From NCBI RefSeq assembly GCF_021917145.1, contig NC_061067.1, forward strand, positions 5,561,874 to 5,625,873: a stretch of 64,000 nt of DNA, given 5' to 3'. This DNA comes from Hypomesus transpacificus. Lineage: Eukaryota > Chordata > Actinopteri > Osmeriformes > Osmeridae. A program made the translations under genes and the position numbers. Positions within the stretch are counted from its first letter, which is position 1, and every line of letters starts with the position of its first letter. The notes under the pieces were generated by a model. The model searched no databases. It saw only the letters and a list, made by a program, of their open reading frames with translations, and had not been told where the DNA came from. Positions 6,866 through 63,500 of the stretch are shown in pieces.

Positions 6866-7123
6866 CTTTAAGACCCGCCTACTGAACAACCCACTCCACA
6901 CGTTAAAGGCAGAGCCATGCCTATGGTTAAAGCCATATCTTCATTCACGCATAAATGGAAGCATCATTTTGAAATGTTTTATTTTACAGTTCAGTTATCA
7001 CAAAATCAAGAACTATGTCAAATTCTTCTACTTGGAGAAAGATGAAAAATACAGTGCAATACACTTTACATAAATACCAGAACTTGAATATTGAGTCACG
7101 GAGGTTTCTTGCAGATATCCTTA
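6866..7123. other. Spacer between tyms promoter and clul1 stop codon
   Basis: About 260 bp carrying the presumed clul1 3' UTR. A - strand AATAAA (TTTATT on +, near 6977) is the likely clul1 poly(A) signal, placing the clul1 3' end within about 250 bp of the tyms start. No other gene is seen. Confidence 0.4.
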
Positions 7124-10100
7124 TCACTGCAATTCTGTAAAAATAAATAAATAATGGTTTTTATCAGGGTTTGGATCGACAGTAAACTCTCTGGAGTAAA
7201 TTTGTAACATTTAACAGTATGATGGAATATTTGCCCCAGTTGTATACGGGTCTGATGCTTACTGTTCAACTTCTGTTTGTATAGCACCAAGGCCTCTTTG
7301 GCCACATACTGGATGAAGGCAGGGTCCTGCATCTCCAATTCAGCTGGAACTGAGAGGGTCAACAATGGAGAGTCCAGGACCTTCACAGCCACTGTGGTGT
7401 CCACCTTAGACCCACTCTCCCTCATCTTTATGTGTGGAACCACCTAGAAACCACCAATAATCATAACACATAACCACAACAGTTTGAATCACAAAGCTAA
7501 TATGCTACCTCTGCTTTTTCAATCAAATGAGTAAAGAGCTGCCATCAGTATCACTGCCATCAGTATCACTGCCATCAGTGTCACTGCCATCAGTGTCACT
7601 GCCATCACTGTCACTTACTGAAGTGATGCTAAAGATGTGCGGCGGGCCCAGAGTGTCATTAGCCAGCAGGGTCACCCAGCCGTACTTCTCTGCTGTGACG
7701 TCCAGCCATGTGAGCGTATCGTCCGTGTGTCTCTGGACCACCAGCAGCGTGTCCTCGTACTGCTGCAGAGAGGCGTTCAGCAGGAGGTGGATCTCCTCCA
7801 GCTCAGAGTGAAGCTCCCTCATGCTGGGGCACTCTGGAGAGGAGCAGAGAAGACACACGTGCATTTGCAGACATTGTATGTAGCTGTGCATCGATCAACT
7901 ATGCCACAGATACTGTAGGCAGACACTGTATTTACACTCTATTCACACATTTTGATCTTTAACATTCACCTCTTCTTAGAGCCTCTTGACAGTTGTCACA
8001 CTGGTCCTGCAGCAGCCAGCAGTCTGAGGCCTGCCTGCGCAGCCGCCTGCACAGGTACCTGCTGTGGCCCGCATCCCCATCGAAGGACGACCCTGGAGCT
8101 GGAGACAGGTGCATGGCACACGGCCAAACAAATCAGCCCCGTGAATTATTGCACTCACAGGAAACGTGTTAGCTTCATCGTGGAAACACACATTTTATGT
8201 CAATGAGATCAGGTACTGTTGCAGGAGATTTTATTTGTAACGGAAATATCGATTGCTTTTTATCATCAATGTGTGTATGATCGTTCCCTAAAACTTTTGA
8301 TTGGAAATCAGGGATCAACAATATGTCCGTAAAGAGTGCAGAGTGCAGACCTATGACGTTGTATCTTAGAATATTGTCCGCATACCTCTCTGCTGCTGAG
8401 TCTCTTTCACCTCGTCCAATGTGTCTGTCATCGCATAACTGAACTCTTCCAGCATAGTCTTGCCAAAGTCATACACTGAGTCCAGGATGTGCTCCAGACC
8501 CATTCCCCTAAGGAAGCCCAGACTAGGGGTCTCCTCGGTGGGGGTGAGCAACCTGGGCTTCAAATCGGTGGTAAAGGCTACATGGAAGGTATGGCCAAAC
8601 TCCTGGTGCATCCTGTTGACCAGCTCCACGCTCGTGTTGTAGAGGACGCCCACTCTGCTCTTCAGCTGTCTGAAGGAGGCGTCCACTTGTACCAGCTCCT
8701 GTTCCATCCCGTCGGGGGTCTGGGTCTGAGATTCGGGCTTTTGGCTCTGGTCTGGGTCCTGGTTCTGGTTGTAGACCTCGTCTTGAGTTTCCAACTGGGC
8801 CGACATCTTCTTGAAGAACTCTTCCACCTAAGGAAGAGGAAAAGAACTCCTGAACTACAGCACACAGTACAACACACAGCCTGGTTTACACATAGGTTTA
8901 CAGTGGCACAGGCCTGGAACCAATACTATTCACAAATACTGCAATTGGTTTATCTCATGTTGCTGTGAATGCAATGGATCAGTGCAATTAATACCACCTG
9001 TGGGATTTACCTTGAAGGAGAAGGATGAAAAGCCCCTCCGGCAGGTGGAGGTGTAGAAGTTCCTACAGGTGTCCTCTAAGCAGGGACGACACTCCTCAAA
9101 TGACATCCTCAGCGAATCACGGCACTGCTGCTCAGCCTCCTGAAGCTTGTGTTCCGTCTCCGTGGCCAACTGCACCGCCCCCTTAGTGCAGAGCACAGTA
9201 AAGGGAAATGATGAATGGAGAGACTGTCTCTGAATTCTCTTGTAGTGCAAGCTCCCTTCTTCCTCCCCTACTCAAGGTCACCTCTGATGTAACGTGTTGG
9301 AATAGGTGCAAACAGCTGCCTCACCACACAGCCGTCACCAATCCAGTCGAGATCAGTTGAGCAAGCAGGAGTGAGGAAAACATTACAATTTAAAAATAAA
9401 CATCAGTCTGCTGATGATTGTTTGGCTGGGATTTTTTGGGGGTCCTTTTCTTATGATCTTTGTCGGGCTGCTTTCAGTGTAGGAGGACTGTGGTGAGTGT
9501 ATTGTCTATTGAAAGAAGATGCTGTGGTTTAGAACCCTGGCTCTCGGCAGCTCGTTTGTACTGAACACGGACACATCTACAGACAGTTCATTAATCCTGA
9601 ATGTGCTGTAACTATACTTTCTACTCCCTACTCCCCTTTCCCATAACCACACTACTCACTGTCTGCCTTGTGGGTTTCTCTATCAACATTTGCTTGTGAA
9701 GCAGAAAATATGTGGCCGTTAAACGTGTCGTTGCTTGGGAAAGACAGAGAACAGACGTTGGGTCTTCCGTGGGTGTGAACGTGTGGTGAGTAAAATGTTT
9801 AGGATGGTTTGAGGCTGTTTTAGCCACAATCATACAAAAGCATACAAAACAGTTACTAAGTCATCTAGTGAAAAAAGATGCGGACGTTTCTAAGGTGTGA
9901 ACAATCTGTCTGTTTATTTCCTCTGCATTCTTACTTTTCTCTTGTCACTGCTGTGTTGCAGGCTGTTCATGAACTGCTTGTGTTTCTCCTCTTTCCTCTC
10001 CATCGTCTCCTTCATCTGTTTGACTCCAAAAAGGGCTCTCTTCATCTCCTCGTCAACATGCCTCTCGCCTTCCCTAGACAGCTCTGCACACACAGCCAGA

Positions 10101-13354: not shown

Positions 13355-40180
<26,826 letters not shown>

Positions 40181-48575: not shown

Positions 48576-48625
48576 TTTTTGGGTGGTTTTCAACTGGACA
48601 CTGCAAAGTAGCCGTGAAAAAAATT

Positions 48626-48734
48626 ACCTTGTGTCCTTGAGCAAGGCACTTCACCCTTCTTGCCTCGGGGTAAATGTCTCTGTACTCACTGTAAGTCGCT
48701 CTGGACAAGAGTGTCTGCTAAATGACTAAATGTG
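48626..48734 (+). repeat. Truncated tRNA-derived SINE (3' half)
   Basis: Reads CCTTGTGTCCTTGAGCAAGG, CACTTCACCC, CTGTAAGTCGCTCTGGACAA and CTGCTAAATGACTAAATGT. This is the body and tail of the SINE seen full length at 54773-54970, but without the tRNA-like head. Confidence 0.8.
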
Positions 48735-49106
48735 AACTTCACCTCGGTCTAATAAATCAGCTATTTTTACCCATTCATTTAAATAACCATCGTTTTTTGG
48801 TGAGAAAATAGAAACTGGTGCTGATACCCAAATCATGGTGGATTTTTTTCAAGTACATGTTTGAGTATTTATACTTGTCCTCTTAAATTGTACAGCAGGG
48901 AGCATACTGCCCTCTATTGTCAGGGCTTGGAGAAGAGGATTTGGGTTGCATTCAAAAACGGCAAGTTTAGCTGTGTTGTTCTGATGTTAGATTATATTTG
49001 TAGGAATGTTGAGGCTGAGTAATATCGGAGCCCAGAGGATGGATTATCCTGGCCTGTAGGGTTTTATGATGGTGTTGGACTAGGGCTAAAAAGAAATGTG
49101 GGCTAC

Positions 49107-49350
49107 AGGCATGTACTGTAGTGTGCTGGGGTTGAGGGCTGTACTGTAGTGTACTGGGGTGTAGGGCTGTACTGTAGTGTGCTGGGGTGGAGGGCTGTAC
49201 TGTAGTGTACTGGGGTGTAGGGCTGTACTGTAGTGTACTGGGGTGGAGGGCTGTACTGTAGTGTACTGGGGTGGAGGGCTGTACTGTAGTGTACTGGGGT
49301 GTAGGGCTGTGCTGTAGTGTACTGGGGTGGAGGGCTGTGCTGTAGTGTTA
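49107..49350. repeat. 28-bp minisatellite
   Basis: About 8.5 tandem copies of a 28-base unit containing GGCTGTACTGTAGTG and TACTGGGGTG, with G/A and T/G variants between copies. It produces repetitive His-Tyr-Ser-Thr-Ala-Leu open frames on the - strand that are not genes. Confidence 0.92.
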
Positions 49351-50773: not shown

Positions 50774-53700
50774 ATGGGCTCGGGGAGGACGCTGAAGTTC
50801 GCCCTGTGCGAGGTGCTGCAGTTCGCGGGCATGTGCGTGCCGCTCTTCGTCGTCATGCAGAGGTTTGCCATCATCGTGGCTAAGGTTAAAAGTGTCAGGC
50901 AGCCCACCACTGATGGAGGGGCGGCCTACTGGCTGATCGTGGCGTCCTCCATCGCCTACGTGACCTCCACAGCCCTGCTGGTCTGGGTCCCCTTGAAGTA
51001 CATGCTGTTTGTGAAAAAGAAATTCCTGGTTGGGAAGAGAAAGTGGTGAGTAGTCTAAACTGGTGGCGAGAGGATGGATGAGTTCAAGGCCTGTTTAGGG
51101 CCTGAGTTTGGATGTGTGGACTTGGTGCTGGAATGTGGGGCCTGGATGCAAGGGTTGGGCCCAGGTGTAGGGCCCACGTTGTGGAGATTGATGCTTGGCT
51201 TTGGTTATGAAGGCTAGGGGCTAGAGATAGGGGTCTAAGGCATTGAAGCCAGGCCTTCAGGATTGTGTCTCTAGATAAGGCCTGGTGTGAGACTGATGTA
51301 ACGTGTGTCCAGATAAGAAGCTTGACTCACACTGCAAATGTCTGGCTGACTGGTCTGGTCTGTATTACAGAATGTATAGGCTAAACAACAATTGTGTTGG
51401 TTCTGAACTGACTGTGGATTGGTTCTGGCTTCTAGCAAAGTAAACCATTGTGAAGTTGTTTTGGTTGTAATTATGTTACATGCGAATGCAATAGTTTGAA
51501 TGTCGATATCTTGGTAGCCTGATAGGCAACTGCAAAATAAACAAAATTAGGCAACTTTTTCTCTCTTTCACTCTCTTAGGAGGCCGGTGGCACTGGTCTA
51601 TGTTATCCTCTCAACATTACCCTGCTTTGCTTTTCTCATCGCCAGCTCAGAGGTAAACCATGTGACACCAATCGTTGGTCATTGTCATCTGCGCCCTCTG
51701 TCTCAGTTCAACTGTTTATTTGACCTTTAGCTTAGATCCACCTCTGGAGGTGACCTTTGTTCTTTGACCTGTAGTCTTAACCCTGGCATGATAGGAATAC
51801 TCTCCCAAATGTACTCGAATCTTCAGTTCAGGTCCGTTCACTTCAGTTTATTTTGTTCCCAAGGGGTGATTTTTGGTGTGACAGGTAACCTTGCTTGTCG
51901 GTTGTATACATTCAAATTATGTCCATAAAAGACTTAAACTGTTCTACAAGACACAAATGATCACAAGTCATGGAAGAGATCGTTACCACAATACACTGCT
52001 GTACCAACCCCTATAACTGTAGTTTGATATCCTCCATTTCTAACATTACTGCCAGGCTAGTGAAGAAGCCATGGTAAAAGTGTGATCTATTACATTGGGG
52101 ACCTTCTGAGAGAGGAGTAAAAGGTGATGAGTTGAGACCAGCAGTTTGGTCCTCGGGGGAGCAATCTACAGCCCTAAGGCTAAGGAGCTACTGATAAGCA
52201 GCTGACGTCCTCTTCCTGTTCAAATCACTCTCTCAAAATCAGCCATCCTGGGTTACTTCCTGTCTGAGAGATGGCCTGCTTTCATTTACTGTCTATGAGG
52301 AACTTTGAAAAGGTCTGGGCCTGACCTCAGCTCCTTCCTTATCTGATGTAATTTACATAACAACCATAAATTCAGCCCAGATGACCGCTACATTTTTTTG
52401 TTCTCTGCCCTGCACCAGTGAAGTCCTGAGTTAAGCACATACCAAAGATGCTAGAGATTAGTCCACTAAACCAGTGTCAGAGAGGGTCTGTTGCACTTAC
52501 ACACAGTAGCCATTTAACCTCTTTGGCTGTCATTTGGGATATTGAGATTTCCATTGGAATTTAAACTAGCAATTGACTGGAATTTTGTTTTGTTCAGTGA
52601 GTCAGTGATGCAGGATAGGAAGAGACCATGGAAATCATATGGTCTGAGTCTAAGTGTTGTTTCCTCTAAGGTGCAGATCAGAAACAACTTAAAACACGAC
52701 ACCTTTACGGAGCTCCCTGTGTCGCTGGTCCTCTTCTGTCTCATCTGCATCGACATTGTCGAAAGGATTCGCCACTGTAGACTCACAGGACAGGGTAAAT
52801 GGTTTATTTTATTTACTTTTTGTCAACCTTTGTTTAACAGTGCAAGAATTATGAGGTCAAATTGTGTATAGCCATGGTGGCCTAAAACATCATATGTTAA
52901 ACAGACAGACATCATGAAACATGAAGGTGAACTGCTGTGCCTGCTCAATGTCTTAGCAGAATATAAACCACTAAAGACAAACCTGATATTCAGTCATACT
53001 GTGCTGGGCCTGTGCATTAAAGAGTGCCTATCTGTGGCAGGCCAAACACCTTAGGGTTGCATGGGATCAGTCCTCAAGGTGAGGAACTGGGCAGGAAACA
53101 GGTTGTCAGCCAAGTGCTGCTTGTAGAGCTAAATTGGCAAAATACCGCCATCTCAGGATGGTTTGTGATTGACAATCATATTTGTTTTTAATTTTTATCA
53201 TCATATTTTCCCTTTTCCTGTATATAGTACAGTAGATCTGCTCAGCTTATACCAACTTTATCATGCAGACGCCTTCTGACGTGAACTCTTTCTGTACTGT
53301 TGTGTTTCTCTCCAGCCAATGACTTGGAGCGGGATGCTGACATCCCCACCACGGTCCTCACGAACGTGGAGCAGGTCGCTTCAGGGACGCCTGCAACGCC
53401 AGCAGCGGCCGCGGCAACAGACCCTGCCGCTGCGCCCACCACACCGGGCCAGCAGAGCGAGAAGGACCAGAACAGTGCGGGGTCACGATCAGAGGCCAAT
53501 GGGATTGTTTCCGGGTTTCCAGGCAATCAGGGACGGCAGTTTAGCATCTCGGGCATGAGCTCACGCTCTGCCAGCATGACGGCACAGTACCACGTGTCGC
53601 CCTACGCATACACGGGCCCGCTGCGCTTCCTGTGTGCCAGTGACGCGAGAGCTGAGATGTTCGTTGAGAGCTTCCTGTTCTGGATGGATACAGTGGAGAT

Positions 53701-54004
53701 GGTTAGGTCAGCAGGACACCCGGCATTGTTCTTCTCTGGCTGGGTGTTCCCCATATACATCTTCAGCTACCTGTCATGCCTGAGGCTGGTGGCCATGCCC
53801 CATAGTCCCCTATTATCATCCCTAGGCGTGGCCCTCCAGGACCTGCCCTTTCTGTTCATCCGTATTGGCCTCATAGCCTTTTTTGGCTTCATCACACCAC
53901 TTCTGTACCTGATGAAGAACTTGCTGGTCTGCTTGGCCTTTATTTACTTCAACTTCATGACCAAGCTGAGAATCTTCAACACTGAGAGGATGTTTTTCGG
54001 ATGA
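50774..54004 (+). CDS. tmem236: Transmembrane protein 236, 4 coding exons
   Basis: Exons: 50774-51045, 51580-51652, 52671-52794 and 53316-54004. They give 385 residues (human about 351). Function is unknown in the family. The start MGSGRTLKFALCEVLQFAGM opens the first membrane span. Further hydrophobic stretches are YWLIVASSIAYVTSTALLVW, ALVYVILSTLPCFAFLIA, a span in exon 3, and two or three in exon 4 near the C-terminus (ending NTERMFFG). Exon 4 opens with a low-complexity Ala/Pro/Thr segment at about residues 165-195, probably extramembrane and the likely cause of the extra length. From intron 2 rightward the gene lies inside a tandem duplication. A poly(A) signal AATAAA follows at 54571. 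Confidence 0.92.
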
Positions 54005-54570
54005 TACAAAAGCCAGATGATAGTACCTGGAAATAGACTGAGGAGTCACTGAGACAAACTGTAGTTTCTTATCAGTCCCCATACAGAGTAGCAGAGGCAC
54101 ATCAAGAGAAGAAGATGTAAATTGATGTGACTCTGATGAGACTGCTGAAAGGAGGAACAGAACAGGACTACATTGGTGGTGCTTTTTGCAGGCCAAAAGG
54201 GAGCTCTTTTGCAATGTGTTCCTGTGAAAGGAAGGACAACATGAGCTGTCAGAGAGCTAAGTGTTGTCTTACTGTTATCTTGTTTCCTACTTGTTCTTGT
54301 TGTTTTTTACCCCCCAACCCCCCATTCATCCCCAACCTGAACCATGGCACTTTGAGAATGTAAAGAACATGTCAAATCACTTCTTACTGATTTTATAACA
54401 GATATTTCTATTACCATAAAGTGCAGTGAATGTGTATGAGCTTAAGAATAATGTGAACATCAATGTTGTTGACATCTCAGATTTTTTCTTTGCAAGGTTA
54501 TGATCATTATACACAAAATGAAAACAAAGCGTGAGTTTGTACCAATGATACCTATTTTTTGGATCAAATT

Positions 54571-54576
54571 AATAAA
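54571..54576 (+). terminator. tmem236 poly(A) signal
   Basis: AATAAA 567 bases after the stop codon, in an AT-rich context. Confidence 0.5.
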
Positions 54577-54656
54577 GAAAAGAATGAAAAATTTAAGCTT
54601 TTTTAATACAATATAATTTGGCAACAGATCAAAAGTTGTATTGTACACTGTGACTT

Positions 54657-54689
54657 TGTGTGTGTGTGTGTGTGTGTATGTGTTGTGTA
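54657..54689. repeat. (TG)n microsatellite
   Basis: Short TG array just beyond the tmem236 poly(A) signal. Confidence 0.75.
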
Positions 54690-54772
54690 TACCTATTATT
54701 CTGTGAAGTGATGATGCATTTATCACGTCACTCATTTCCCAATGTGTGCATTTTCCCAGGCACGCTCAGTCT

Positions 54773-54970
54773 TTACATTTACATTTAGTCATTTAGCTGA
54801 AACTCTTATCCAGAGCGACTTTAAGTTAGTACGGGGGACATTCCCCAGAGGGAAGTAGGGTGAAGTGCCTTGACCATGGACACAACGTCAATTGCACAGC
54901 CGGAAATTGAACCAGCAACCTTCTGATTAATAGCCCGATTCCCCAACCGCTCAGCTATCTGACTCCCCCC
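54773..54970 (-). mobile_element. Full-length tRNA-derived SINE
   Basis: On the - strand the 5' head reads GGAGTCAGATAGCTGAGCGG, with an RNA polymerase III A box (TAGCTGAGCGG) and, about 35 bases on, a B box (GGTTCAATTTC). The body follows (GTGTCCATGGTCAAGGCACT, TCACCCTACTTCCCTC). The tail is AGTCGCTCTGGATAAGAG-like and ends in CTAAATGACTAAATGTAAATG. It is a V-SINE-like retroposon, inserted in the same orientation as neither neighbouring gene. Confidence 0.85.
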
Positions 54971-55093
54971 GTCTTCCTCAGCCCAGGATGGTTCAGGATG
55001 ACTTGGTTGACATGGCTCCTTCATGATGTGTCTGCCAGCCTGGTCTGGTCAGGCCTCCTTCTGGCCTAGCTCCTGGAGAGCCATCTTGCCTGC

Positions 55094-55342
55094 CCTGTGC
55101 CCGCACGCTAGGGGCTACCCTGTGCCCACACACTGGGGGCTGCCTTGTGCCCACACACTGGGGGCTGCCCTGTGCCCGCACGCTGGAACCTGCCCTGTGC
55201 CCGCACACTGGGGGCTGCCCTGTGCCCGCACGCTGGGGCCTGCCCTGTGCCCGCACACTGGGGGCTGCCCTGTGCCCGCATGCTGGGGGCCGCCCTGTGC
55301 CCGCACGCTGGGGGCTGCCCTGTGCCCGCACACTGGGGGCAT
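55094..55342. repeat. 25-bp GC-rich minisatellite
   Basis: About ten copies of a 25-base unit (CTGTGCCCGCACRCTGGGGG plus CTGCC). It keeps long frames open on both strands (for example Pro-Val-Pro-Ala-His-Trp-Gly repeats), which are not genes. It lies inside the left duplication copy; no counterpart is seen in the right copy. Confidence 0.93.
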
Positions 55343-56411
55343 TCTCATCCCTTTTGTTGAAATCCACTGATGAGTCCATCAATGGTTGTTGTATTCCTTT
55401 TCAGTCTTCTAATTTGAGATGAATTCCTTGTGACACTGCTGTTTTCGCTCCTTGTCGGACACCGTCAGGACATATAGGAATGTTATGTGTGTCTCATCCT
55501 GCATTTTGTATGATGCATGCATCGTTTTTTTCTATCTTGCTTGACACACATCCAATCACATGTCTGGTGGGAGGGGGGCTTTTGTCAAACAAAAACACTG
55601 TTACGCTGTATCAGTTCAACAGAATTGTTTTACTTTGCTGCCTGATCCAGAGTCCATGACTACTGTACAGTAGCATCCTGTTGATATTGTCTAGTTGCCC
55701 TCAATTCACCCACACCTTGTCCCAAAAAATTAGAGCGGCATATTTCCTCCTTTGCTTCTCCTTTCCTTTTCGTCTCATCTCCATGGTGAAAACTTTGTTT
55801 AAAATTACCTTGTTTTAAGGAAGTCAAATTGAAGTCATGACTGAGTGGTGTAGATGGAATGAGTTGGTGTAGTCTTCTACCTCAATTTCTTTTTCAGGGC
55901 ATTAAGATTTTCTTTTGATTGGATTATTTGCTCCTTTGTCAAGTCACATGCAGTTCTTCCCCTGTTGGGATGTATGATGTCTTTGGGGCTAGAGAATGAG
56001 TCAGAAATACTTGGGTCAACAGAAAATCAAGGGGTTCTCTAAACCCAACAAGGCAGTTCATCTTCCACCACTGCTTGTAATTCAGCTGAATTGTCCCTTC
56101 CATTAGAACAGTTTGATTTCCTGTTTAATTTACTGTGACATTGTCAGAGGTTGTGGAGGTCAGTGCTGACTGGGTCTGGTCTCTGACCCCTTGCACATAC
56201 TGTAAAAACATGTTTCCTCTCATTTTCAGCGCTGTGGACACAACACTGTTTTCCCTCAACTTGACTGGGACACAATCTTTTCTTTGCCTTGACACTGCTT
56301 CACAACTTGTATAGGAAGAGCCAGGAAGCCGAAAAGTAAAGCATGAGTTAGTGTGATTTTTGTACTGATTTGCTGAAAGCTCCGTCTCCCCATCTTCCTC
56401 CCCTTCCACAG

Positions 56412-56563
56412 CCTCTGAAGGCAGGGACAGTGACCCAGTGACGGGAGTGTTGTACCGGAGGAACACCCAGTCAGTTCTGACCTGGCACCAGGCCCGGGTG
56501 AGCTGCCAGAAACAGGGGGTAGACCTGTTCAGCATCGTGGAACTTCACGAGAAGACGTATATC
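56412..56563 (+). pseudogene. Broken copy of mrc1 exon 4 (start of first C-type lectin domain)
   Basis: Follows a good acceptor (CCCTTCCACAG) and reads [40 protein letters not shown] and KTYI. This is over 80 percent identical by eye to mrc1 exon 4 at 60399-60554. The Gly-Trp before the first Asp has become Gly-Arg. The splice donor (TCTGGTGAG in the real gene) is replaced by ATCATAGACATGG, so the exon cannot be spliced onward. The remaining mrc1 exons are absent nearby. It belongs to the left copy of the tandem duplication. Confidence 0.88.
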
Positions 56564-56904
56564 ATAGACATGGTTTACAAGATCAACACAGCACAGAAGT
56601 TTGCCTCCCTACTCTCCTATTTCCCTTTCATTGCAATGCATTGCAATATCACTGCCAAAGTCAAAACATTTTTCAAGTCTTGGTTTACGTGGTTGTAAGT
56701 AACACTGACTGATGCAAGAAGCTGCTACGGCAAACAAGAGATATATAGTTATTTAAGAGTTGTCAATGTGTAAATCATTTGTTTCATCAAAGTCAGGCAG
56801 TTTATCATTTATTGCAATATTCAAAATCAAATAAAAAATCGAATACTCTCAAATAGACAGTTCATTAGTGTATTAGCTGCTGTTCCCTCTTTATCGGCTG
56901 TCTT

Positions 56905-57720
56905 TTACAGAACAACTATAAATTCAGCCCGGATGAACGCCGGATCATTTTGTTCAGTGCCCTAGCTGTGCCGGTGAAGTCCTGAGCTAAGCACATACCA
57001 GACATACTCGCCAAGGTGAGGGATATAAGGGACCACTTAAACTACAATGGAATCACGGTTCGGAAACAGCATGGAACATGACACATTTACGGAGCCTCCC
57101 TGCGTCGCTAGGCTTCTTCTCCCTCTCTCTGCTGACATGCAAAGTCACACTGTGTGTGCATCAAAGACTAATGCTTAGCGGTGATGTCAAACACCTTGGT
57201 GTAGCATGGGATCTGTTCTCAAGTTGAGGAAATGAGTAGGAAACAGGTCGGAAGCCCAACCAAGTGCTGCTCCTGATACAGCACTGAATTGGCACATTTT
57301 TAACAATGCTGTCTCACAGGATGGTTTGTGACTTCTTGGAATTGCTGTGTGCATGTGACTAAACAGACAGCCGAGAATTGTTGTCATCATGTCCAACGGG
57401 TTTGATGTGAATTAAAACTGAATTATCCCCATAGATCAACATCAATGACCATACAGACTAGGATTAAAGGAAGAAAAGGTTGTGTTATTTTACATTGATA
57501 AATATGATGACAGAAAGAACAGAACAGGATGACTTTCTTGATAATACCTTATTACCTTTTTGATTTAATTAGTTTAATAAAGAAAATAATGGAAAACAGA
57601 GGCACTTTTCCACAATATCATTGGGCTAAACATCTGTAATTTTGTGTTGGTGTGTGTTTACTTACTCTATTTGAGGTTATGATGACACCCGGACTTCATA
57701 ATGTATGCATTTTCCCTGAC
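56905..57720 (+). pseudogene. Remnant of tmem236 exon 3 and 3' flank (right duplication copy)
   Basis: Around 57060-57140 the sequence matches tmem236 exon 3 (ACACATTTACGGAGCCTCCC against ACACCTTTACGGAGCTCCCT). It has an in-frame stop (ATGGAACATGA) and further indels. The following intron matches to about 57340 (CAGGATGGTTTGTGA). The counterpart of the 689-nt exon 4 is missing. Matching resumes with the 3' UTR (GAACAGAACAGGA at 57517, AATAAAGAAAA at 57578). It cannot encode a protein. Confidence 0.82.
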
Positions 57721-60563
57721 AGATGATCTAGCCTTCTGGTGGATAGATGGTGCATGGTGCAGCAGGAGTGGGGTGACATGGCTTCACACTAGACTTCCTT
57801 TGATACTTTGGGCAGGAAGCAGGATATCCTCCTGTCTTCTTTCTTCTGGAGCACTATCGTTGTCTCAGAAATCCCCTGCGTCAGCGCTATGAAGAGACTG
57901 CCCGTCCTCCTTAAATCCCTCTTTGTTGATAATTTTCCTTCTTTTTCACTACTTCTTACATTGTCATAATATTCTTCTTCATTCTTTTGATTTCTGGTGA
58001 CCTCCCTGTGACACTGTCGGACACCTTCCTGGTGTGATTTGGCGCCCTAGGGACACTACCAGGAAATGTAAAGGGATGACTTGACATGACATTGTATGAT
58101 GAAAATATATCTTTAGCTTTGCTGTGTAATAAAAAGTCCATGATTATTGTGGCATCCTGTTGATATTTGGTTATCCTCATTTCCCCCTCGCATTGAAGTG
58201 AAATACGGGAACTGTTAAATGTTTTATCCCACCTCTTCAGCGTTTCTGAAAAGAGGTATTGGCTCACTGAGATGTGGTGACAGGACACAATGACACCAGG
58301 AACCTGTACATGCTTGGTGGCATCCTGTCCTCTGCACACTCCAGATAAGTGAAGGCATAAGCACATTTCCACCTTTTCCTTCTCTTTTCCTTTCATCTCA
58401 TCCCAATGGAGGGAAAGCTTGTTGAAAAGGACCTTGTTTGGCCACAGCCCCATCATGCCATGTGACAGGATGCTCATCGGTGAGATTAAGGGGGGGGGCG
58501 CACTCCACTTCCCTCTCACTGCTCTTCTTGCAGACACCTGAGCACACAGACGGACCCCATCTCAGAGGACTGGAGGACTATCTGACCTTTTGTCTGAGAC
58601 AGCAAACTATGCACCAGCTATGATGGCACCCAGTCCCTCCTTGGTGGTGCTTCTCTGCCTCACACAAGCCCTCCTCTGCACAGCGGTAATAGGTATGTCA
58701 GGCCGACCCTGTCTTACTCTACTTTTAAGAAATCCTACTGGAAATGGTACCCTAACCCATTCAGTGTTATTGGGGGCTGCCAACTATGCTGCACTGATGA
58801 TGTGATTTTACTGTCGTATGTGCAAATTATTTCTGTTAACTTCTTTGGGGGATTATGTCAATAGAACGTTTGAAAATGAAGGCAACAAAAGATTTCGGTA
58901 TCAGTAGTTGTAGCCTTGAGTGGTTTAGGAATTGTCTTCCACCTGAGACTAGTCAGACAATTGTTCTCTACTCCCTCATGTCACAGACACCGGCTCCTTC
59001 CTGATCTACAATAAAGACCATAACAAGTGTGTAGTTGCTGTGAGCCCCACGGTGGTCCATGCAGGAACTTGTAACCCCACAGCCAAGAACCAGAACTTTC
59101 GTTGGGCCTCACAGTTCCGCCTCCTCAGCCTGTCCGAGAAGCTGTGTCTGGGGGCCCAGGAAATAAAGGACTGGGTCAAGGTGATGCTCTATCCCTGCGA
59201 TGAAACTAGTCCTCTACAACAATGGGAGTGTAAGAATGAGACGCTTTTTGGTCTCAAGGGCCAGAACCTGCACTTTAACTATGGCAACCGCAATGAGAAG
59301 AACGTGATGATCTACCAGGGATCAGGAACATGGAGCCGCTGGACCATGTACAGCCCACAGAATGACCTCTGCTCCAAGGGATACCAAGGTAAGAGGCACC
59401 ATGCTTACTTGGAGTAGTCTCAAACTAACACTGAACACTATTATCCCAGGTGTTTTAAGTCTGGTGTGGTTGAAATACAAACTTGAACCACATCCACATA
59501 TTTTCTTCCTCCATCTTTCTGTTATCTGCTTGTCTCCTCATCTCAGAGATTTTCACCTTAGGCGGAAATGCCTTTGGCAGTCCATGCCAGTTCCCCTTCA
59601 AGTTTAATCGGAAGTGGTTTGCAGAGTGCACGATTGAGGGCCGCTCAGATGGACAGTTATGGTGCGCCACAGTGACAGACTACAATAACGACAAAAAATG
59701 GGGATTCTGTCCAAGCAAATGTAAGTCTGTGAGGCTGTGTTTTATCTTAGATTCCATATTAAATTATCCTGTTTTCTGATGTTGGGCAAGAGTTTATGAT
59801 GTGTTTGGGCTTAGAGTACGAGTCAGAAATGCATGATAATATAGAAAATGAGGGTGTTCAGTGAGTCTCTAGATCCAACAATGTAGTTTATCTTCCACCT
59901 CTGCCTGTGAATATTCTGAATTTCAGCTCTCTTGAGTACTCAGAATGGTTTTATTTTCCTGTTTTGCTGTGACCTTGTCATGGGCCATCTTTGCTGAGGT
60001 CAGTACTTACCAGGTCTGGTCTCTGACCTCTTGTACAGAAAAACATTTCCTCTTGTCTTCAGAGCTGTAGATGCAACCCTGTCATTCTTATCCTCCCGAC
60101 CTGACTTGCACACAATCCTGTCTATCCCCTGATACTGTTTCATTACTGGGACAGGAAGAGCCAGGAAGCTGCTGCTCACTGGTGGAATGGCAAAGCAGGT
60201 CTAGATCTGAGGGAAGTTGAGTAAAATGAATGGTCACTGGGATTTTCTCTTGAGGATATTGCACAGTTCAAAAACAATGTTGGTCTCAATGCCCAGCTGT
60301 TTATATTAATCACAAAATATGAAAACATGCAAGCAGCATTCCGATTTGTTGAAAGGTTGTTCACCGCCTTTCTCCCACCTCCTCCTCCCCTTTCCCAGCG
60401 CCTCAAGGCTGGGACAGTGACCCAGTAACAGGAGTGTTGTACCAGAGGAACACCCAGTCAGTTCTGACCTGGCACCAGGCCCGGGTGAGCTGCCAGCAGC
60501 AGGGGGCAGACTTGCTCAGCATCGTGGAACTTCACGAGCAGACGTACATCTCTGGTGAGAGTT
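56905..60563 (+). repeat. Tandem duplication, right copy (tmem236 wreckage to functional mrc1 exon 4)
   Basis: Counterpart of 52355-56904. The functional mrc1 exons 1-4 lie here, while tmem236 is reduced to a partial exon 3 and 3' flank. Similarity is not detectable beyond the end of mrc1 exon 4 at about 60563, where the left copy diverges. Both copies carry many substitutions and indels, so the event is not recent. Confidence 0.8.
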
Positions 60564-63500
60564 TACCTGTCAAGGTTGTCCCCCTTCATCTAATACATGA
60601 GGGTGGCATTTTGTACATCAAAAATATTGTATGTCACAATCACACCTGAATGTCATCAAACAGCATTGCTTAAACTACCTATACATGTCTAAAGGGTGTC
60701 TTTCATGCAGGGTTGACCCATATCTTGAGCACAGCTCTTTGGATTGGGCTCAACAGCCTGGACTTTGAAAGTGGATGGCAGTGGAGCAATGGAAACCCAT
60801 TTAGATACCTCAATTGGGCTCCAGGTAAAGTTGGACACATATTACATGATCAACACAGAATCCTTATAATACTGCTGCACAAATGTTGTTGTCTTGGAGG
60901 AGGGTGTACCCTTTGATGTACGTGAAAGGTGAGAAGCCTAATTGGTCAACATGATTTTGTCAATGATTTTGACAGGGCACCCATCAACTGAACCTGGTCT
61001 CAACTGTGGTGCTCTGCATGCGGGCAAAGCCTCCAAGTGGGAGAGCCTGTCCTGCTCTAACAAACTTGGTTACATCTGTCGCAAAGGCAACTCCACCAAT
61101 CTCCCCCCTCCTCCCATAGGTAAGAATATCCATACATGATTAAAATATTTACACCGACTTTATGCAATGTCATGCCAAGGTAATGTTGATACTGAAGTTC
61201 AAAATGTCTGTTTCATCCCCACCACCTAACACTACTGATCCCTTTAACTTCTCTTTATCTTTACCAAAAGACCAGCCCAGTTTCTGTCCCAATTACTGGG
61301 TACCTTATGCTGGTCACTGTTACTTCCTGGAACGTACCAAGAAGATGTGGCGGGAAGCTCTGGCTGCCTGTCACAAAGAAGGAGGGGACTTGGCCAGCAT
61401 CCATAACATTGAGGAGCAAAGTTTTATCATATCACAGTCTGGTTACTGTAAGTACCTCAAATGGTTATTTTTTGTGAAAAAGGTTCTACTTAGTGAAACA
61501 TTTTAGATCTGAGATGCTTTGAAAGTAGATATTCTCACATGTCCTGATTGATGATGAAGTGTAACCGAGTTGAACTGGTTAAACTATAAATACCACCCAC
61601 CCACTGTGGCTTGGCCTGATTTGCTGGATCCAAGATCAAAACCCAGAAAGGGAGGAGGCAATACTGAGCGACTCTTGCTACATTTACTGAATAATGTAGC
61701 TTCCTGGTGGACTCCTTCCTGTGGTCTAAGCACATCCATGTCAAGTTTCACATCTGTAGGCCTGTGACATTTAAAAACTCCTCACTTCCTGTCATGACCC
61801 CAGTGGCCTCAGATGAGCTGTGGATTGGGCTCAACGACCAGAGGAACCAGAATTTGTTTGAGTGGTCAGACCGCTCCCATGTGACGTTCGCCCAATGGCA
61901 GCCGGGTGAGCCGTCCCATGATACTAACTTCCAGGAAGACTGTGTCCTCATCAGGGGAAAGGTAACATCCACAGTATTCCTAAGAGGGAGATTTTTATTG
62001 AAGCTCCTTTTTTGTGTTTATTTTACATAATACCTGTTTTAAAAATGCACACATTTAGTGTGATTAGATAGGTCAAAGTATGTGTTAATCAATACAGGCA
62101 TGACAAATTGTCAAATCGTGTCAGATCTTTAGTTAACTAATGAGGGGGAAGAAATAGATAGTAGAGAATACAAACTGGGTCCTTTTACAATAACATTGGC
62201 ATGGCTGTGGTCCACCTCTTCCTCCAAAAAGGATGGCAAGTGGGCTGATCACATGTGTGAGAAAACTCATGGATACATCTGTAAGAAGAAGGCCTCTATC
62301 AAGCCACCAGCAGAAGCCACAGAAGAAGTCATCTCAGGATGCAAAGCTGTAAGCAATGTTGTCTCTTGTGTACAGTGTTTTGCCATAAGGTTGTCCCAAG
62401 TGAGAGGCATCATTCATAATGTGTGTTGCATGGAAAAAAGAGTATTGTTTAAATATCAACTACTGTGCAATTGTATTAGTCCTTTCTGGGCTTTCCTAAT
62501 GTTGTGTTTTAAATGTTTGTCTTTCTCCACTATAGGGGTGGATCAGGTTTGGAATACACTGCTATAACATTGGATCAGAGACCAAAACATTTGAAGAGGC
62601 GAAAACTGTTTGCCAAAAAAGTGACTCCAATCTGGTGCATGTGGATGACAGGTAAAACAACCTTTTCACATTCCATGTTTGACTGCACAAATATTTTGTA
62701 AAAAAAAATTCATAAATGTTTGCTCTTCACATATAATGTGTCTATTTTTGTCCTACATATAGATATGAGAGTGCTTTCCTGATTAGTTTGGTGGGTTTGA
62801 GACCGGAGAAGTACTTCTGGACTGGCCTGTCCAATTTGGCAGATATAGAAACATTCTTGTGGAGCAGTGGAACACAAGTCAAGTTTACTCATTTCAACGT
62901 GGGAATGCCTGGTACAGTGTAGCCTTCTATCAGTGGCTCCTAACCATACCTACACATATGAATCTGCCATATTTTCAGTTTTGCAATGGTCATATTGTTA
63001 TATCTCACACTTGTCAAATCTCACAACTTCTTAAACTTATAATCTTGTATTCATTTACCATCTCCATTTTTTGTTTCTTTTTTTGTGTGTTTCTGTTTTG
63101 TTTGTAAAAGATAGAAAACAAGGCTGTGTTGCCATAGCAACTGGGATGTTTGCTGGACTATGGGATGTTTTAAGTTGCGACAGGAAAGAAAAGTACATCT
63201 GCAAAAAGATGGCGGACGGTGTCACAACAACAGCTGTCCCTCCCACCACTGCAGCCCCAAGATGTACGGCCGGGTGGTTTGGGTCTCCTAAAAGAAACAT
63301 CTGTTACAAGGTAAAAAGATGCACTTCCACGGACAACCATTAAATAATGCTAATGATGATTATGATCATGATTATTATTATTACAAGACATATGACTGAA
63401 CTCTAACCTCTCAAGTATAGTCGATGAAATCTCAATCTTTCCTCTGTACAAGTTTTTCAAAAAGCCTGTCGTAAACAAGAAGAACTGGCAAGAGGCAAGA

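Follow-up and report, generated by a model that had tools for sequence, protein, structure and literature searches.

How two neighbouring genes came to be partly doubled, with each left in a single working copy, is the question raised by the tmem236-mrc1 interval of the fish Hypomesus transpacificus. The interval was analysed within a window of 64,000 nucleotides (assembly GCF_021917145.1, contig NC_061067.1, positions 5,561,874 to 5,625,873 of the forward strand), and all coordinates below count from the first letter of that window. An earlier note on this DNA had described a tandem duplication reaching from tmem236 into mrc1, its two copies in the same order and orientation, followed by complementary loss of exons. 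A collinear diagonal, missing exons, broken remnants, an open tmem236 frame and mrc1 exons 1-4 can be seen directly here, and they are probably the outcome of a single tandem duplication of ~4 kb, one that broke tmem236 within intron 2 and mrc1 at the end of exon 4, and of subsequent decay of the interior that this event left stranded. The locus is an old, ordinary but well preserved scar.

Local matching of 51650-56750 against 56570-62000, with expectation values (E) of up to 1, listed 15 matches. Eleven of these form an ordered, same-strand chain from 52332/56884 to 56563/60550 with bit scores totalling 902, as compared to a maximum of 267 bits and a median of 26.8 among 48 random segment pairs of like size, which were drawn from positions 1-46400 of the window and partly overlap each other. 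Two adjacent, collinear copies on the same strand are thus present beyond chance, as expected of a tandem segmental duplication, and the claimed duplication holds up as a collinear diagonal, not as scattered short matches. Its bounds had been placed at 52355-56904 and 56905-60563; the two copies stand, while their exact limits are corrected to 52332..56563 for the left copy and 56884..60550 for the right, both on the + strand, as are all features of the two genes given below. The other four matches comprise one self match, one collinear match (54071-54174/57441-57536) that overlaps its neighbour by 27 bases, and two off the diagonal, namely 41 bases at 52323/58986 and a match at 56503/61368 that is read as family likeness between CTLD1 and CTLD2. 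The offset between the copies is 4552 at 52332/56884 and then 4382, 4149, 3370, 2997, 2959, 2766, 2578, 2486 and 2623, with 3822 at 55973/59795 and 3987 at 56388/60375, and indels in both copies would give such variation. A plain global alignment set the start of the left copy opposite gaps and misplaced the long deletions, and was replaced by the local matches and their chain. The left edge of the diagonal (52332/56884) falls within tmem236 intron 2 and the right edge (56563/60550) within mrc1 exon 4, so that, as tested here, each of the two genes contains one breakpoint, the type of arrangement that forms chimeras; the right edge may reflect a later deletion.

Repeats also distinguish the copies. 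The left copy alone carries a 25-base minisatellite (10 copies, 55090-55340), none being found in the right, and a dispersed repeat at 54778-54893 that was likewise observed only on the left and matches 48622-48736 in inverse orientation at 83%. Within 48622-48736 lies the 3' element of an UnaL2 long interspersed nuclear element (LINE; 48678-48731, + strand, Rfam RF00436, 56.1 bits against a cut-off of 55), and a related element therefore sits in the left duplicate.

The working tmem236 gene uses the left copy. Exon 1 (coding part, 50774..51045) and exon 2 (51580..51652, with AG/GT boundaries and in frame) lie outside the duplication, whereas exon 3 (52671..52794) and exon 4 with its stop codon (53316..54004) lie within it; splice sites and an open frame confirm that exons 3-4 were kept in the left copy, as previously proposed. 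Joined, the four coding exons give a single open frame of 385 amino acids, and a Pfam search returned no family for the protein. We take it to be TMEM236 from its 41% identity to human TMEM236. If this identity holds, tmem236 stands beside mrc1 outside mammals too. Among the species compared in one account of the locus, TMEM236 is reported from mammals only (PMC4229073).

In the right copy, exon 3 of tmem236 persists as a relic (57053..57132) in which the acceptor AG now reads AA, one added base shifts the frame, and the 3' 46 of its 124 bases are lost together with the donor; its own frame contains no stop codon. For exon 4, no counterpart was recovered on the right, the best match having an E of 1.1 and none falling below 0.2. 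At this position 109 bases (57332..57440) face 902 bases of the left copy (53169-54070, including exon 4), a net loss of ~0.8 kb. The absence of exon 4 from the right copy had been correctly called, but that account was incomplete, as the right exon 3 is also broken.

The opposite arrangement applies to mrc1, whose working 5' exons are those of the right copy. Exon 1 (58620..58692) encodes a signal peptide, judged by position and composition, and joins in frame to exon 2 (58987..59388), which encodes the cysteine-rich domain (Pfam CysR_MRC2_N, 1.5e-17 on the joined exons). Exon 3 (59547..59720) encodes the fibronectin type II domain (Pfam fn2, 2.2e-17), and exon 4 (60399..60554) the first half of CTLD1. 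The 39 PDB matches to exon 4 are led by 9wyt ('yolk sac IgY receptor precursor', 3e-24) and 5xts ('Macrophage mannose receptor 1', E 1.1e-21), followed by LY75, MRC2 and PLA2R. A nearer GT was dropped as the exon 1 donor because the frame puts the donor 7 bases further on; the Pfam search of the mrc1 protein used exon 1 joined at the nearer GT. A sub-threshold Pfam match of the cysteine-rich region to another beta-trefoil family was disregarded, and none of the candidate relatives of exons 2-4 in prokaryote contigs (35 pattern matches) or viral contigs (2) was confirmed.

Exons 1-3 of mrc1 were not recovered from the left copy, the best match having an E of 0.23 and none falling below 0.2 in a search whose exon 1 and exon 3 queries stopped 6 and 2 bases before the ends finally adopted. 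In their place are 157 bases (55816..55972) opposite 1355 bases of the right copy (58440-59794, including exons 1-3), to which this remainder aligns no better than shuffled sequence (43 of 300 shuffles were as good). Most simply, the loss was one net deletion of ~1.2 kb. Beyond it follow a relic of intron 3 (55973..56329, matching 59795-60169 with 22% mismatches at aligned sites) and a relic of exon 4 (56412..56563), again the first half of CTLD1, which differs from 60399-60550 at 14 of 152 sites. The exon 4 relic retains its acceptor AG and its frame and has neither indel nor stop codon, but its match ends 4 bases short of the exon end and the GT donor is missing. The joined frame and domain matches on the right, and the missing exons 1-3 and exon 4 donor on the left, both agree with what had been proposed for mrc1. 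With introns kept (the intron 3 relic) and disabling changes present (missing exons and donor, and the frameshift and lost acceptor of tmem236 exon 3), the remnants have the character of unprocessed pseudogene fragments. An open mrc1 exon 4 relic of this kind could mislead gene predictors.

How, then, did the losses come to be complementary? In the proposed history, a tract of ~4 kb that began in tmem236 intron 2 (5' breakpoint) and ended where mrc1 exon 4 ends (3' breakpoint) would have been duplicated once in tandem. Because both genes are read from the + strand, the 5' half of tmem236 would have kept its connection to the left set of its own 3' exons and the body of mrc1 to the right set of its own 5' exons, and both genes would have survived. 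The interior, left mrc1 exons 1-4 followed by right tmem236 exons 3-4, would have been stranded as an mrc1-tmem236 junction without an essential function, decaying through two large net deletions, smaller indels and point changes. We infer this order of events, the single event at its start and an interior that was dispensable from birth. The one set of tmem236 exons 3-4 that follows tmem236 exons 1-2 is the left, the one set of mrc1 exons 1-4 that leads into mrc1 exon 5 is the right, and it is these exons, still joined to their own gene, that have survived. These positions suggest that breakpoint geometry fixed the pattern of loss: because the breakpoints lie inside both genes, the losable copy of each would have been set at birth, and no chance sorting between equals is needed. 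The earlier reading of one duplication and then complementary loss is therefore supported as to duplication and loss, while 'reciprocal' is right as a description but misleading as a cause. The locus offers a worked example of how two genes of the same direction can both come through a tandem duplication that cuts them, while the chimera formed between them decays. Should relatives retain the interior at earlier stages of decay, the locus would show how long a promoter-bearing as compared to a promoterless fragment stays selected.

The divergence of the copies indicates that the event is old. At aligned noncoding sites, 273 of 1197 differ (23%; Kimura two-parameter distance 0.274) and there are 42 gap events, with mismatch fractions from 0.14 to 0.31 by block; unalignable stretches were left out, which makes this divergence a lower bound. 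Neutral rates of 4e-9 to 1e-8 per site per year would date the duplication very roughly to 14 to 34 million years ago. Two similar adjacent segments might also be produced by an assembly that set two haplotypes side by side, but 23% mismatches and 42 gap events refute this explanation, to which we attach practically no credence. Allelic difference in vertebrates is far lower than 23%, and a noncoding distance of 0.27 argues for an old duplication and not an assembly artefact. The same two genes are doubled in tandem in a double annotation of human chromosome 10, described in PMC4229073 as >99% identical and there judged much more likely to be a mis-assembly; here, in contrast, 23% mismatches mark a real, old event.

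Between the copies lies a junction segment of 320 bases (56564..56883), which aligns no better than shuffled sequence with mrc1 intron 4, exon 5 or intron 5, or with tmem236 intron 2. Beyond exon 4, the best continuation of the left copy agreed with mrc1 intron 5 at 16 of 17 bases, equalled by 69 of 200 shuffles, and the best extension against 60547-62600 was equalled by 62 of 200. When the right copy was extended upstream into tmem236 intron 2, 184 of 200 shuffles did as well, and close to the edge 39 of 200. The left copy also seemed to continue toward the start of mrc1 (0 of 200 shuffles as good), but that alignment had included part of a known anchor, and the signal was gone once the anchor was removed (65 of 300).

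The two measurable stranded exons record their decay differently. In the tmem236 exon 3 relic, 14 of 71 sites are mismatched, as compared to 10.9-12.4 expected for neutral decay since birth, so that this relic is consistent with such decay. The mrc1 exon 4 relic has 14 differences, whereas 210 overlapping windows of 152 noncoding sites (with the aligned blocks strung together) have 25 to 49, with a median of 35. Part of this gap is expected, since the right exon is constrained. The 13 coding differences (5 synonymous, 8 nonsynonymous) give a pairwise ratio of nonsynonymous to synonymous change (dN/dS) of 0.45, a value that fits one copy under constraint and the other relaxed. Six of the eight amino acid differences fall in the stretch aligned to PDB mannose receptor 1, and in all six, as read by eye, the right copy has the mannose receptor 1 residue while the left differs, which places these changes on the left branch.

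Several points nevertheless weigh against the proposed history. At dN/dS values (omega) of 0.05, 0.15 and 0.3 for the right copy, a neutral left exon 4 is expected to show 23.0, 24.3 and 26.2 differences, so that the 13 seen are too few (P 0.017, 0.009 and 0.003, respectively). Exon 4 also has no indels where 2.7 are expected (P 0.07), and constraint on both copies throughout, although rejected at omega 0.05 (P 0.0002), is not rejected at 0.15 (P 0.095) or 0.3 (P 0.67). The duplication model leaves the origin of the junction segment unaccounted for, and the comparison is made within one species. The deficit is weaker at a low local rate (P 0.18 if the divergence K is 0.188, as in a slow noncoding block). 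The slower decay of the left mrc1 exon 4, which is the only hint of past use, could reflect temporary use, gene conversion or a locally slow rate, as seen from one short exon.

Past use and conversion are elaborations compatible with a single ~4 kb duplication, and the confidences given for them need not sum to one. Gene conversion from the right copy, or a low local mutation rate, may have kept the left exon 4 similar without its ever being used, an explanation we rate as plausible, if somewhat short of an even chance. One identical run of 52 bases is longer than expected (permutation P 0.03), and synonymous differences number 5 as compared to 7.9 expected, but this synonymous deficit is not significant (P 0.20) and mismatches show no sharp tract edge, their fraction being 0.22 across intron 3, 0.14 over the 28 sites immediately ahead of exon 4 and 0.09 within exon 4 itself. 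Chimeric or paired genes, as the earlier note suggested, possibly once existed here. The orphan mrc1 5' end (promoter, signal peptide, cysteine-rich and fibronectin type II domains, half of CTLD1) would then have been expressed for a time, either as a secreted, truncated protein or fused to the 3' exons of tmem236, which we consider rather unlikely. In its favour, the stranded exon that would have borne the promoter is the slower of the two to decay, and the order at the junction, mrc1 5' end and then tmem236 3' end, would allow a splice from mrc1 exon 4 to tmem236 exon 4 (starting in phase 1) that is in frame to the latter's own stop, with phases read on the present-day letters of the working exons. 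Chimeras from tandem duplication often change expression in the Drosophila yakuba set of PMC5460883 (24 of 76). The splice to the first tmem236 exon beyond the junction, however, is out of frame: mrc1 exon 4 ends in phase 1 and tmem236 exon 3 starts in phase 0, so that a stop follows 36 codons on, in a product of 304 residues of which 268 are from mrc1. The exon 4 donor is absent, perhaps since birth, and the deficit of changes is modest and comes from a single 150-base exon. In the present interior, which lacks both the left donor and the right tmem236 exon 4, neither chimeric splice is possible.

Two further explanations also put the left exon 4 to use. A larger duplication might have copied tmem236 exons 3-4 and the whole of mrc1, giving two full mrc1 genes, the left of which worked for a time before one large deletion took exon 5 to the last exon and a second took exons 1-3. 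Such an event would account for the slow decay of the left exon 4, and a right tmem236 exon 3 relic that decayed neutrally is as compatible with it as with the smaller duplication. Arrays of intact MRC1 genes at the same locus in birds, turtle and lizard, as described in PMC4229073, show that tandem duplication has occurred at MRC1 elsewhere; there, whole genes were copied and have intact frames, whereas here the copied segment holds only exons 1-4 and the extra copy is broken. A larger duplication requires one more large deletion, and the junction segment resembles none of mrc1 intron 4, exon 5 and the beginning of intron 5 more than shuffled sequence does, which makes a larger duplication improbable in our judgement. 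Very improbable, and the least likely of the accounts of exon 4, is that the left exon was or still is used, for example as an alternative, lectin-derived C-terminus of TMEM236 reached by a splice from tmem236 exon 3. That exon ends in phase 1, and the relic starts in phase 1 and is then open to a stop at 56696; an AATAAA at 56830, in the junction segment downstream of this frame, may be due to chance in AT-rich DNA. If true, such a C-terminus would be a case of exon capture by an upstream gene after tandem duplication.

The single ~4 kb duplication with later decay of its interior also has parallels in other systems. Tandem duplications yield chimeric genes and gene fragments, and those of Drosophila yakuba with intragenic breakpoints, in the account of PMC5460883, likewise strand gene ends at the junction. 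The yakuba cases are a population sample, and such duplications are called recently derived and segregating in PMC4503668, whereas the present one is old and most exons of its interior are gone. A literature search, judged from titles and the starts of abstracts for fish tmem236, found no paper on a tmem236-mrc1 duplication relic.

Other features of the window lie outside the duplicated segment. A 28-base minisatellite of 8.5 copies (49112-49348) is located upstream of tmem236. An uninterrupted frame of 358 codons at 22501-23574 (- strand) encodes a Tc1/mariner-type transposase (Pfam HTH_Tnp_Tc3_2, 3.5e-25; DDE_3, 3.7e-13) and is apparently an intact coding copy. Exons of the clusterin family occupy 7099-8827 (- strand; Pfam Clusterin in all three frames tried), in a gene that is probably clul1. 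At 35981-37846 (+ strand), a frame with a weak, sub-cut-off, coiled-coil-like match to Filament is followed by a collagen-repeat frame (Pfam Collagen, 6.9e-25), and the gene is probably that of the scavenger receptor colec12.

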